Positions 40,202 to 46,092 of a DNA stretch of 64,000 bases are shown here, in pieces. The first letter of the stretch is position 1. Each line of letters opens with the position of its first letter. Under the pieces are notes generated by a model, which ran no database searches, was not told the origin of the DNA, and worked only from the letters and a program-made list of their open reading frames with translations. Source of the DNA: Jezberella montanilacus (GTDB lineage: Bacteria; Pseudomonadota; Gammaproteobacteria; Burkholderiales; Burkholderiaceae_B). The translations under genes and the position numbers were made by a program. The DNA lies in NCBI RefSeq assembly GCF_003003055.1, contig NZ_PVTV01000011.1:124001-188000 (forward strand), given 5' to 3'.

Positions 40202-41306
40202 ATGGAAGCAGAACGTCAGAATTTGATCGCCAGCCGCCTGGCCGATTACGCCGCCCGTGAAGTCGCACTTCGGGGGTATCTTTGACTACGAAGCAAAAGC
40301 TGAACGCCTGCACGTCGTCAACGCTGAGCTAGAAGATCCAGCAGTATGGGGCGACCCTAAACATGCTCAAGAGCTGGGACGAGAAAAAAAGAACATCGAA
40401 GGCGTTGTTGAAACCCTCACGCAGCTAGCTCAATCCATTGCAGACTCAACCGAGCTATTTGAACTGGCTGCGGCTGACGGGGATGACTCAACCCTGGAGG
40501 CAATTGAACAAGATGCCGATCAATATCAGGTCAGCCTCGAAGGGATGGAGTTCCGTCGGATGTTCTCAAATCCGGCTGATCCACTTAATTGCTTTTTGGA
40601 CATCCAGGCGGGTGCTGGCGGGACCGAAGCGCAAGACTGGGCGTCGATGCTATTGCGTCAGTATCTTAAATATGGCGAGCGCAAAGGCTTCAAAACCGAA
40701 CTGCTGGAAGAATCTGAAGGCGAAGTTGCCGGTATCAAATCTGCCACCATCAAGATTGAAGGGGAATACGCGTTTGGGTTTTTAAGAACCGAATCTGGCG
40801 TGCATCGTCTGGTACGCAAAAGCCCCTTTGATTCCTCGGGTGGTCGCCACACCTCTTTTGCTAGTGTGTTTGTGTATCCCGAGGTTGATGATTCGATTGA
40901 AATCGATATCAATCCAGCTGATCTGCGTGTCGACACGTATCGCGCGAGCGGCGCTGGTGGGCAGCACATTAACAAAACTGATTCAGCTGTTCGTATTACC
41001 CATATTCCCACCAATATCGTTGTGCAATGCCAGAACGACCGGTCTCAACATCGCAATCGCGCCGAAGCCATGCAGATGCTTAAGTCGCGTTTGTTCGAGC
41101 TTGAAATGCGCAATCGCATGGCTGAGCAGCAAAAGATGGAGGATGCCAAAACCGACGTGGGCTGGGGCCATCAAATCCGCTCGTACGTGCTCGATCAAAG
41201 CCGCATTAAGGATTTAAGAACCAACGTTGAGATATCCAACACGCAAAAAGTGCTTGACGGCGATCTCGATCCATTTATTCAAGCAAGTCTAAAACAAGGG
41301 GTGTAA
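40202..41306 (+). CDS. prfB: Peptide chain release factor 2 (needs programmed +1 frameshift)
   Basis: Ends translation at UGA and UAA codons. The gene starts at the ATG at 40202 and runs 27 codons to CTT, then meets TGA at 40283-40285. A +1 slip at CTT-TGAC joins the upstream frame to the long downstream frame (codons from 40284), giving about 367 aa, the normal RF2 size. The RF2 recognition motif SPF is in [10 protein letters not shown] and the catalytic GGQ is in [15 protein letters not shown]. In RF2 the frameshift is self-regulating, since low RF2 lets the ribosome pause and slip. lysS lies further downstream with an SDR gene between. Confidence 0.97.
40272..40286 (+). promoter_or_regulatory. 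Programmed +1 frameshift site of prfB
   Basis: The sequence GGGGG TAT CTT TGA C contains an internal Shine-Dalgarno-like GGGGG at 40272-40276, then TAT, the slippery CTT codon and the in-frame stop TGA followed by C. Apart from the base before GGGGG it is identical to the classic E. coli prfB element. Confidence 0.96.
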
Positions 41307-42079: not shown

Positions 42080-43594
42080 ATGACCGAACAAACTGCCCCA
42101 CAACAAGACGAAAACCATTTAATCGCAGAACGTCGCAGCAAGCTTGCTGCCTTGCGCGCGACCGGTGTGGCTTTTCCGAATGATTTTGTCCCCTCTGATC
42201 GGGCACAACCATTGCAAGACCAGTATGGCAACGAAGAGAAAGCAACGCTAGATGAAGCGAAACATCCCGCTTCGGTGGCAGGTCGGATGATGCTCAAACG
42301 TGTCATGGGCAAGGCCAGCTTTGCAACATTACAAGACAGCACGGGCCGCATCCAAATCTATCTGGATCGCAACTCGTTAGGCGAAGAGGTCTACGACAGT
42401 TTCAAACAGTGGGATATCGGTGACATCATTGCTGTGACTGGGTTTGTGTTTAAAACAAACAAAGGCGAGTTATCCATTCATGCAGCAAGCGCCAAGATTT
42501 TGTCCAAGTCTTTGCGTCCTCTGCCTGATAAATTTCATGGGGTGTCGGATCAAGAGATCCGCTACCGACAGCGCTACGTCGACTTGATCATGACTGAGCA
42601 AACGCGCCAAACCTTCCTGGCACGCAGTAAGGCCGTCAGCTCGATTCGTCAGATCATGACGGATGCGAAGTTTCTCGAAGTTGAAACGCCCATGCTGCAT
42701 CCCATCCCAGGTGGCGCAGCTGCCAAGCCTTTCGAGACTCACCATAACGCGCTCGACATGCAGATGTTTTTGCGTATCGCGCCCGAGCTTTATCTGAAGC
42801 GCTTGATCGTTGGTGGTTTTGAACGAGTCTTTGAAATCAACCGTAACTTTCGCAACGAGGGTGTGAGCCCCAGACACAATCCCGAATTCACCATGATGGA
42901 GTTCTATGCGGCTTATGCAGACTATCAATGGTTGATGGATTTCACAGAAAACCTGATTCGTGCCACAGCCATTCAAACATGCGGTACCGCAACGCTGACC
43001 TATCAAGGTAAAACCTTGGATCTGTCGCTACCCTTCCATAGACTGACGATCGTGCAAGCAATCCTCCAGCATGCCCCGCATTACAGTGAGGCTCAGTTAA
43101 ACGACATCGACTTCATCAAACCTGAACTTAAAAAACTCGGTGCTGACATTCATGCCCCTAACCTTGTCAATGCCGGTCTGGGTGCGCTGCAACTTGCCCT
43201 ATTTGAAGAGACAGCCGAGTCACAGTTGTGGCATCCAACCTACATCATTGACTACCCGATTGAAGTGTCGCCTTTAGCACGCGAATCAGATACCCGGCCA
43301 GGAATCACCGAGCGCTTTGAGCTCTTCATCACGGGCCGCGAGATTGCTAACGGTTTTTCAGAGTTGAACGACCCTGAAGATCAGGCTGCTCGGTTTCAAG
43401 CACAAGTTCAAGCCAAGGATGCGGGCGACGAAGAAGCCATGTATTACGACGCCGATTACATCCGTGCGCTCGAGTACGGGATGCCACCCACTGGTGGCTG
43501 CGGTATTGGCATTGACCGACTAGTCATGTTGTTATCTGACAGTCCCAGTATTAGAGACGTGATACTCTTCCCGCACTTACGTAAAGAGGACTAA
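42080..43594 (+). CDS. lysS: Lysyl-tRNA synthetase, class II
   Basis: Charges tRNA-Lys. The 504-residue protein has an N-terminal OB anticodon-binding domain (about 65-170, [21 protein letters not shown]) and a class II catalytic core. Motif 2 is [25 protein letters not shown] (about 252-276) and motif 3 is [19 protein letters not shown] near the C-terminus. Third gene after prfB and the SDR with tiny gaps, so probably co-transcribed. Confidence 0.97.
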
Positions 43595-43622
43595 CACGGC
43601 CAAACAAGGCAAACAGTCTTTT

Positions 43623-44381
43623 ATGCAAAAGTTACATAACCCACAGATAGACCTACGCTATTGGATCTTGATCAGTCTAGCCAGTATTTTTGGCACGAAT
43701 ACCGGTGACTTGACCGTTCGCTTATTTAATCTGACCGGGCAGTCTTAGTTTGGTTTAAAGCACTTAGGTCCTTTACCGCTGCTCATCTTAGCTTTCGCAG
43801 CCGTCTATCTGATCGAGAAAAAAGATCAGCGCTCAGGCGAAGCTTATTTCTGGACTGCGATCATTTTGATTCGCACAGCGGCCACTCAAATTGCTGACAC
43901 GGTCAATGGCGATCTGGGTGTAGATCTTATCTTTTTGATAGGTGGACTAGCTTTTGTACTAGTTGTTTTAACCCTTCAATGGCAATCAAAGCGCACAAAA
44001 CCCCTAGACCTCGTGCTAGTGCCTGATACGACCCAGATGTATTGGCTCACCATGCTGATTGCAGGCGTCTTAGGCACAGTGATTGGAGACGAGCTCTGGC
44101 ATATTATGGGTTTAGCGTCATCTTCGCTGGTCTTAAGTATAAGCATGGGTATCCTGGTCTTTCTGGGACACAAAAGCTTTTTGAAACTAACCGCCCTTTA
44201 TTGGTTTGGAGTGCTGTTTGCGCGGATCGCCGGCACGGCGGTCGGCGACTGGCTAGCCAAAACAATCGCAAGAGGTGGCGCGGGCCTTACCTTAGAAGGT
44301 GCCACGTTGCTTAGTGGCTTGGTTTTTATCGGCGTTTGCTATTTTTGGAAATGGCAACAGCGCGATCAAGACAATCGCTAA
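43623..44381 (+). pseudogene. Integral membrane protein (COG4705-like) interrupted by one in-frame stop
   Basis: From ATG 43623 the frame reads MQKLHNPQIDLRYW and a first membrane segment with GTNTGDLTVRLFN. A TAG follows at 43746-43748. The same frame then continues without break, FGLKHLGPLPLLI through several hydrophobic segments to a normal stop at 44381. Repeated motifs are visible: GTNTGD, ATQIADTVNGDLG, GTVIGDELWH and GTAVGDWLAK. This fits the COG4705-type repeat membrane proteins whose half-repeats carry a G-T-x-x-G-D pattern. Only the stop breaks it, so decay is recent, or the base is a sequencing error or strain variant. Intact length would be 252 aa. Confidence 0.8.
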
Positions 44382-44387
44382 TCTTAC

Positions 44388-45224
44388 TCAAACCGGTATT
44401 TGCCCCGCCAGCGTGATTCTATGTAAGAGCCGCTTATGACCGTGATAATCATTAATCGGATTGTGCAGCACGCAACGGTTATCCCACAAAGCGATTGAAT
44501 TTGGTTGCCACACGAAGCGGCAGGTGAATTCAGGCCTGATTTGATGAGCAAACAAGTAGTCCAACAGACCTTGGCTCTCTTCTTCGGTCCAGCCGACGAA
44601 CTTCGTTGTGTGCCCTGGATTCAGATAGAGAGACAAACGGCCAGTCTCAGGATGAATTCGTAACACGGGATGTTCAGAATTAAACTCGGACTTTGCAGGT
44701 TTACCGGGCGCATCGGCCATTCTGTCCTCGCGCGAATGTGTGACTACTGCCTTGGCAGACGAATTCACGGCCTTCAAGCCTTTTAAGGTCTGTTTTAGAC
44801 CTTCGGACAATCTTTCATAGGCGGCATAGCCGCTTGCAAATAAAGTATCTCCACCGACTGGAGGCAATTCACGTGCGATCAGCATGGTCGCTGCTGGTGG
44901 GACATCCAGATAAGTCGTATCGCTGTGCCAAACCCCGCCAAAATTGTGCGTCTCATGAGGCAACTTCAAGACTGGGATAATCAGAGGATGATCCGGCAGA
45001 CCCTTCACGAACGGGTATTCGACAATGTCGCCAAAGCGCCTGGCAAATGCCAGGAAACCGTCCGAATCAAGCGGCTGATCTCTAAAAAAGATTACCCCGT
45101 GTTTTAGCCAGATTTGGCGAATCTCGGCCACCACTGCATCGCTCAACGGTTCGAGCAGGTTAACGCCAAGAACTTCTGCACCGACTGCTGTGCTCAGCGG
45201 TTTGACTTCAAGGGTATATGTCAT
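44388..45224 (-). CDS. TauD/TfdA-family Fe(II)/2-oxoglutarate dioxygenase
   Basis: An oxygenase that hydroxylates a small substrate using 2-oxoglutarate and O2. The 278-residue protein has the iron facial triad His100 and Asp102 (VWHSDTTY) and His254 (VLHNPINDY), with the 2-oxoglutarate-binding Arg near 269 in HRITLAG. The N-terminus with VGAEVLGVNL is TauD-like. No taurine or sulfonate transporter genes lie nearby, so taurine is only one of several possible substrates and I give no symbol. It is 6 bases from the convergent broken membrane gene and downstream of the isomerase-like gene. Confidence 0.88.
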   Translation of the reverse strand: MTYTLEVKPLSTAVGAEVLGVNLLEPLSDAVVAEIRQIWLKHGVIFFRDQPLDSDGFLAFARRFGDIVEYPFVKGLPDHPLIIPVLKLPHETHNFGGVWHSDTTYLDVPPAATMLIARELPPVGGDTLFASGYAAYERLSEGLKQTLKGLKAVNSSAKAVVTHSREDRMADAPGKPAKSEFNSEHPVLRIHPETGRLSLYLNPGHTTKFVGWTEEESQGLLDYLFAHQIRPEFTCRFVWQPNSIALWDNRCVLHNPINDYHGHKRLLHRITLAGQIPV

Positions 45225-45312
45225 ATTAGGCTATTGTCTCTTGATCTGTTTATTCTTTGAAGCTTATCAACATAGAATAAATCAAAACCTGACCGAACAA
45301 AACACCCGCAGA

Positions 45313-46092
45313 CTAGTGCCGAGTGTAAGGCTTGAGCCACTCAAGGCCCTCTTCAACGCCTGCGCGGGGTTTGTACTCAGCCCCGATCCAGCCCTTGTAA
45401 CCAAGCGCATCAATATGCTCAATCACGACTTCGTACCTGACTTCGCCTTCGTCCGGCTCTGCACGACTAGGCACAGCTGCTATCTGGATATGCCCGATAT
45501 GAGGCAGAAACTGCTCAAGCTTCTTGAGAATATCACCCTCTGATACGCCGACATGGTAGACGTCAAACATCAACTTGACGTTGTCACGTTGGCAGGCAGC
45601 TCGGATAGCATTGGCTTGGGATTGACGGGAATACAGGTAAGCAGGCTTGTCACGTTCATTAATCGCCTCAAGCAAAATCGTGATGTTGTGCTCAGCAGCC
45701 AAATCCGCGGCCCACTTAACGTTCTCGATCATCATGAGAATGCCTTTATCGATCAAATTAGTTGGGACAACACCCGCCATTACATGAATCGAGTTTGCGC
45801 CACTCTCTGTGCACCATTGCAAGGTTTGCTGAAAACCTTTGCGAAAATCCTTCTGTCTGCCTGGCAATCCGGCCAAGCCAGACTCGCCCTGACTGGTATC
45901 ACCAAGATGGGTATTGATTCCCAATAAAGTCAGACCCAATTTTTTACAGGCTGCTTTAACGTCAGCTGCTGGAGTGTCGTACGGCCAGTGTAGTTCTATC
46001 GCTTTAAAGCCAGCTGCAGCAGCTTTTTCTATCCGCTCAAGCAAGGGCAAGTTCGCCCATAGAAATCCTAAATTAGCTGAAAAACGAGCCAT
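45313..46092 (-). CDS. Hydroxypyruvate isomerase-like TIM-barrel protein
   Basis: A 259-residue sugar-isomerase-type TIM barrel. Metal-binding or catalytic acids are in ILLEAINERDKP (about 139-150), MFDVYHVGVSEGD, HIQIAAVPSRAEPDEGEV and GAEYKPR (Glu239). It matches the Hyi/OtnI group, which interconverts hydroxypyruvate and tartronate semialdehyde or 2-oxo-tetronates. None of the usual glyoxylate genes (gcl, glxR, glxK) is nearby, so the exact role is open. Its start is 17 bases after fdx on the same strand, which places it behind the isc operon. Confidence 0.86.
   Translation of the reverse strand: MARFSANLGFLWANLPLLERIEKAAAAGFKAIELHWPYDTPAADVKAACKKLGLTLLGINTHLGDTSQGESGLAGLPGRQKDFRKGFQQTLQWCTESGANSIHVMAGVVPTNLIDKGILMMIENVKWAADLAAEHNITILLEAINERDKPAYLYSRQSQANAIRAACQRDNVKLMFDVYHVGVSEGDILKKLEQFLPHIGHIQIAAVPSRAEPDEGEVRYEVVIEHIDALGYKGWIGAEYKPRAGVEEGLEWLKPYTRH

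Follow-up and report, generated by a model that had tools for sequence, protein, structure and literature searches.

A probable recent nonsense break in a DUF347-family membrane protein gene of Jezberella montanilacus

Introduction

A reading frame that is open from end to end except for one stop codon raises a simple question. Is the gene broken, or is the stop codon not what it seems? Such a frame lies just downstream of lysS in the DNA of Jezberella montanilacus analysed here, a stretch of 64,000 nucleotides referred to as the window. The most likely answer is an ordinary kind of event, namely the nonsense break of a gene from an uncharacterised membrane family. The evidence for this, and the readings that compete with it, are set out below.

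The interrupted frame

An ATG at 43623 opens 41 codons that end in a TAG at 43746-43748. In the same frame throughout, 210 sense codons and a TAA at 44379-44381 follow, and the TAG is the only internal stop in the 43623-44381 frame. Reading the frame thus bears out the original prediction, made from the letters of the window, that the two parts are a single frame differing only by this codon. The G-T-x-x-G-D repeat that it described as common to both parts is also there, as GTNTGD 5' of the stop and as GTVIGD and GTAVGD 3' of it. Codon usage scores the part 3' of the TAG best in its own frame (0.257) and is uninformative for the short part 5' of it, which scores 0.104 in frame and higher, at 0.311, on the reverse strand. 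The features of the locus are as follows, with helices assigned by position on a structural model of a relative, L073 (see below).

42080..43594, plus strand: lysS (lysine--tRNA ligase), directly upstream and the anchor for comparison with congeners; NCBIfam NF001756, 732.7 bits (cut-off 468)
43623..43745, plus strand: first part of the DUF347 gene, 41 codons that take in the start, helix 1 and the first of the GTxxGD motifs
43704..43763, plus strand: loop joining helices 1 and 2, measured from Gly-Asp of repeat 1 as far as Gly-Leu-Lys-His, 20 codons with the stop counted
43746..43748, plus strand: premature in-frame TAG; no internal stop seen in the 70 related loci, whose matches cover this site in 69 cases
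43749..44381, plus strand: remainder of the DUF347 gene, 210 codons and the TAA
44388..45224, minus strand: TauD/TfdA-family dioxygenase gene; Pfam PF02668, 240.4 bits
45313..46092, minus strand: xylose-isomerase-like TIM-barrel gene; Pfam PF01261, 135.3 bits

Family assignment

What kind of protein would the frame encode? With an X at the stop, it matches Pfam DUF347 (PF03988) at 73.4 bits in four stretches, counted at E values up to 0.1 (the curated cut-off is 28.2 bits). The second half by itself scores 64.3 bits in three stretches, above the cut-off, and the first half by itself 18.8 bits (E 0.0019), under it. A genome-wide search at E<=0.001 returns only two DUF347 stretches, both 3' of the TAG, and the genome holds a single DUF347 copy. 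We take the Pfam description of PF03988 to be one of four tandem repeats, and the architecture is presumably that of an eight-helix membrane protein with two helices per repeat. Four such stretches are found in the read-through frame. Judged from these matches, the interrupted gene is one for a DUF347 (PF03988) repeat membrane protein, and the search with the joined frame in this way upholds the earlier description of it as a membrane-protein gene. Matches to DUF1614, DUF2070 and DUF2304 are weak and all under their cut-offs, and no NCBIfam family matches the gene.

Relatives of the gene and the private stop

Neither a protein search nor the Pfam model found the gene in any of the genus's 31 other genomes, 17 of which have completeness of 90% or more and contamination of 5% or less, and the comparison was therefore made with other genera. 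With a five-row alignment as query, public genome contigs yielded 70 related loci. The close subfamily was recovered by this alignment-based scan only: single-protein scans of genome contigs and viral contigs gave no relative, a phage collection gave no match at E 1e-5, and a plasmid collection gave 33 records, all of less than 60% identity. The closest seven loci, at 51-58% identity, are L073 (an Oxalobacteraceae MAG), L074-L078 (Burkholderiales MAGs) and L079 (Polynucleobacter rarus). All seven match across the TAG site, from residue 1 to residues 243-251, without a stop. Because DUF347 is found in both halves and the homology of the relatives spans the TAG, chance is excluded and the two halves come from one protein. 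This is the single gene cut once that had been proposed.

In a tree of 23 rows the window gene and L073-L079 form a clade with 100/100 support, and the window gene pairs with L073 at 82/76. The branches of L061, L063 and L068 are long and their placement is unsure.

Is the stop shared by any relative? Relatives with a stop at the same place, the observation that the original prediction had asked to be looked for, were not seen. None of the 70 loci has an internal stop or an out-of-frame length in the stretch matched, which spans the TAG site in 69 of them (L142 ends before it) and in many stops short of the gene end. Matches beyond these loci were also surveyed. Within the wider family, matches at E<=0.001 occur in 26 of 268 genomes, the window's own included, and the others among the matches listed are distant, at 21-31% identity. 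Evenly drawn genomes match in 32 of 399 cases for the order (E<=1e-9), 2 of 369 for the class and 7 of 398 for the phylum (both E<=1e-15), again with the own genome included, and the best of these matches are 36-37% identical.

One other DUF347 gene with an internal stop turned up among the matches listed in the genome searches, at L043:1501-2070 (genome G573, same order). It has a single in-frame TGA where its relatives have Trp, in a frame that is otherwise open and a gene that is otherwise conserved, and so resembles the window gene. However, its TGA lies about three quarters of the way along and it belongs to another subfamily, so that the two are independent events.

Structural place of the stop and length of the loop

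Where in the protein does the stop fall? The AlphaFold2 model of L073 (mean pLDDT 89.3, pTM 0.87) has eight long helices, a count that belongs to this relative and not to the window allele. On it, the interrupted loop connects helix 11-37 to helix 55-71, the first and second of the eight. Hydropathy along the window frame, scanned at a cut-off of 1.4, marks about five to six segments and leaves helix 1 unmarked, so the helix count is taken from the model; six segments are given in a section of a paper on Frankia (PMC4531530). No solved structure clearly matches the L073 model. Foldseek gave no match to PDB chains at E<=0.001, and a profile search of PDB sequences returned only two antibody chains (E 0.45 and 0.69). 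VIA-align against 998 chains gave Z of at most 6.1, which says nothing for or against a shared fold.

The stop is not the only peculiarity of this loop. From the repeat-1 Gly-Asp to Gly-Leu-Lys/Arg-His there are 20 codons in the window, TAG included, versus 24 in L073-L078 and 25 in L079. Between the first Gly-Asp and the Trp motif of repeat 2 lie 45 residues in the window. Six of the close relatives have 49 there and the seventh has 50, and 47 other loci have 37 (the pattern caught 56 of the 70 loci, two of which falsely read 157). The comparison reveals a long-loop Burkholderiales subfamily within an uncharacterised membrane family. With L073-L079 the window gene shares the repeats, identity over nearly the full length and a loop longer than that of the 47 others. 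In contrast to the window gene, these seven are uninterrupted and have a first loop that is 4-5 codons longer. The stop is thus not all that sets the window allele apart from the seven close relatives: its loop falls short of theirs by 4-5 codons. An in-frame deletion may have created the TAG or may have accompanied it, the length comparison being compatible with either order of events. Direct-repeat families of at least 12 nt, sought within 43500-44500 as a source of slippage deletion, were not found there.

Age of the break

A pseudogene is expected to carry a disabling change that its intact relatives lack, as this gene does, and to decay further. Further decay is not seen. There is no second stop, and the window gene has changed at one of 34 conserved columns (N89Q), where a column counts as conserved if at most one of 22 relatives departs from it. 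Relatives treated likewise show 0 to 8 departures in 34-39 columns. Nor is the end branch in the tree long: it measures 0.42 for the window gene, 0.54 for L073 and 0.43 at the median. From the number of codons one step away from a stop, about 32 new stops would be expected per neutral substitution per site. The lack of a second stop then limits neutral change since the loss to about 0.09 substitutions per site or less (95%; our own estimate, which assumes equal rates for all changes). Since the rest of the gene is without decay, either it was lost recently or the draft is wrong at the stop. Absence of further decay is what is expected of a very recent pseudogene. A single, unshared premature stop in a frame that is otherwise open is also what the window gene has in common with nonsense-interrupted bacterial genes classed as recent pseudogenes. 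It has no feature that would set it apart from ordinary examples, and the loss of its product is presumed.

The explanation that fits best, and in which we have fairly high confidence, is a recently broken gene, a probably acquired DUF347 membrane protein gene in which a nonsense codon interrupts the loop joining helices 1 and 2. An in-frame deletion in that loop may itself have generated the TAG. Ribosomes starting at 43623 would halt after 41 residues and leave a single membrane helix. A restart at the TTG at 43866 would yield at best a fragment missing all of repeat 1 and the beginning of repeat 2. On the structural model, neither piece is likely to work alone. An annotation as a probable recent pseudogene is then appropriate, and metal-related traits that would be ascribed to this genome because it carries DUF347 (see below) are doubtful.

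Alternative explanations

What if the organism has an intact gene, with the TAG due to a miscalled base in the draft? This sequencing or assembly error is an unlikely reading. A single base could explain the stop, the remainder of the gene looks functional, and the genome is a draft in 19 contigs. With one strain and a draft assembly, a base-calling or assembly error is possible, and an intact remainder fits a gene still under selection as well as one broken recently. Moreover, the closest relatives are 51-58% identical, so the intact state before the break is unobserved, and the grouping with L073 is supported at no more than 82/76. An observation that does not fit is the loop. One erroneous base is insufficient to make it 4-5 codons shorter, in frame, than in all seven close relatives, although that change of length could be older and harmless. 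The assembly is also listed as 100% complete with 0.05 contamination. If the stop is nevertheless a sequencing error, the TAG is an error to correct.

Could the TAG be decoded as an amino acid, by read-through or by reassignment of the stop, so that the full protein is made? The frame is intact and conserved motifs lie on both sides of the TAG, yet the idea is very improbable. If decoding were the rule, relatives might be expected to share the stop, and none of the 70 does. The Rfam tRNA model marks 39 places in the genome. ARAGORN makes 57 calls on these loci, with 39 distinct sequences and at least one call per locus. An anticodon for UAG (CTA), UAA or UGA is not among the 39 tRNAs found, a set from which the model may miss members. 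In addition, TAG ends nine of the 46 non-overlapping window ORFs of at least 200 amino acids, including the neighbouring isomerase-like gene. On the tRNA set and on the use of TAG as a normal terminator, stop reassignment was rejected, and the original prediction was right to rate read-through as the less likely outcome. A stop that is probably recoded lies nearby for comparison. The gene for release factor 2, prfB, at 40202-41306 on the plus strand and 3.5 kb upstream, contains an in-frame TGA at 40283-40285, as CTT TGA C after a G-run, which we take to be the textbook programmed +1 frameshift signal. The stop in the DUF347 gene is without the context seen at the prfB TGA. As an aside, the mechanical ORF list starts prfB too late, at 40257.

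It is hardly plausible that the locus holds two working genes, one for a 41-residue peptide with one helix and one for a C-terminal protein started downstream. In-frame ATG, GTG or TTG codons are present in both parts, but the first one 3' of the TAG is the TTG at 43866, inside helix 3 by position on the L073 model, and its product would be without repeat 1 and part of repeat 2. None of the 70 relatives is split at the TAG site. A scan of 43400-45400 found no promoter-like site where 2.3 are expected by chance, which makes it a weak scan. The split gene was rejected because there is no ATG, GTG or TTG between the TAG and helix 3. Equally far-fetched is a leaky switch placed in a loop tolerant of changes in length, in which low-level amber read-through would yield a little full transporter and the shortened loop would be adapted to the inserted residue.

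Origin of the gene

If the gene was recently broken, as we prefer to think, where had it come from? The gene order around lysS offers a clue. lysS was found in 24 of the 31 congeners and 23 of these loci were compared, L166 being left out because of a truncated lysS. The isomerase-like gene lies 15-158 bases past lysS, on the opposite strand, in 13 of the 23. It is 928 bases from lysS in L163, and in nine loci it is absent from the sequence examined (450 bases for L160, otherwise about 1500). The window has the DUF347 and TauD genes at this place, in the interval 43595-45312 that separates lysS from the isomerase-like gene. A TauD gene follows lysS in none of the 23 congener loci over the stretch examined; TauD matches at E<=1e-40 are present in 29 of the 31 congeners. 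Judged by gene order, the DUF347 and TauD pair occupies a lineage-specific site, a putative insertion or rearrangement.

Because it was found in none of the 31 congeners and because 13 of 23 loci have lysS directly beside the isomerase-like gene, the DUF347 gene looks acquired. The source was probably other Burkholderiales. Gain would be a simpler account than loss in all congeners. The sequence of events would be a gain from other Burkholderiales and then a recent disruption. Five neighbour genes from the window were sought in the 70 related loci and none was found there. The isomerase-like gene itself matches the NCBIfam models for 2-oxo-tetronate isomerase and hydroxypyruvate isomerase below their cut-offs.

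Function of intact relatives

What would have been lost? Going by the literature and by gene neighbours, intact relatives probably act as metal-related membrane transporters or permeases. Metal export has been proposed for DUF347 in Frankia, in a section of that paper that bases the proposal on lead-induced operons of an undecaprenyl phosphatase and DUF347, in another bacterium, in a Bacillus isolate or in Frankia (PMC4531530). A passage of another paper terms the family a stress-associated metal transporter (PMC9756366). Among the close relatives, one suggestive locus is that of Polynucleobacter rarus (L079:288-6026). There the uninterrupted DUF347 gene is flanked on one side by a TonB-dependent receptor gene and on the other by tonB-exbB-exbD with a second exbD-like gene (judged by eye), all on one strand. 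An ArsA-type ATPase gene is found about 1 kb upstream of the DUF347 gene in L076, and a CNNM/CorC-type gene is its neighbour in L077. The neighbours in these three loci fit metal or metalloid handling, though they vary by locus. Neighbours in other close loci are unrelated, an example being a PhoD-like phosphatase gene in L073. The Polynucleobacter rarus locus is a useful lead to function and possibly to the substrate.

Plasmid-borne DUF347 genes of the other subfamily have neighbours of a different kind. In L062, L064 and L065, from Sinorhizobium, Thioclava and Nostoc, they lie near a response-regulator/winged-helix gene and a sensor-kinase gene, the latter annotated on the Nostoc plasmid only as an ATP-binding protein.
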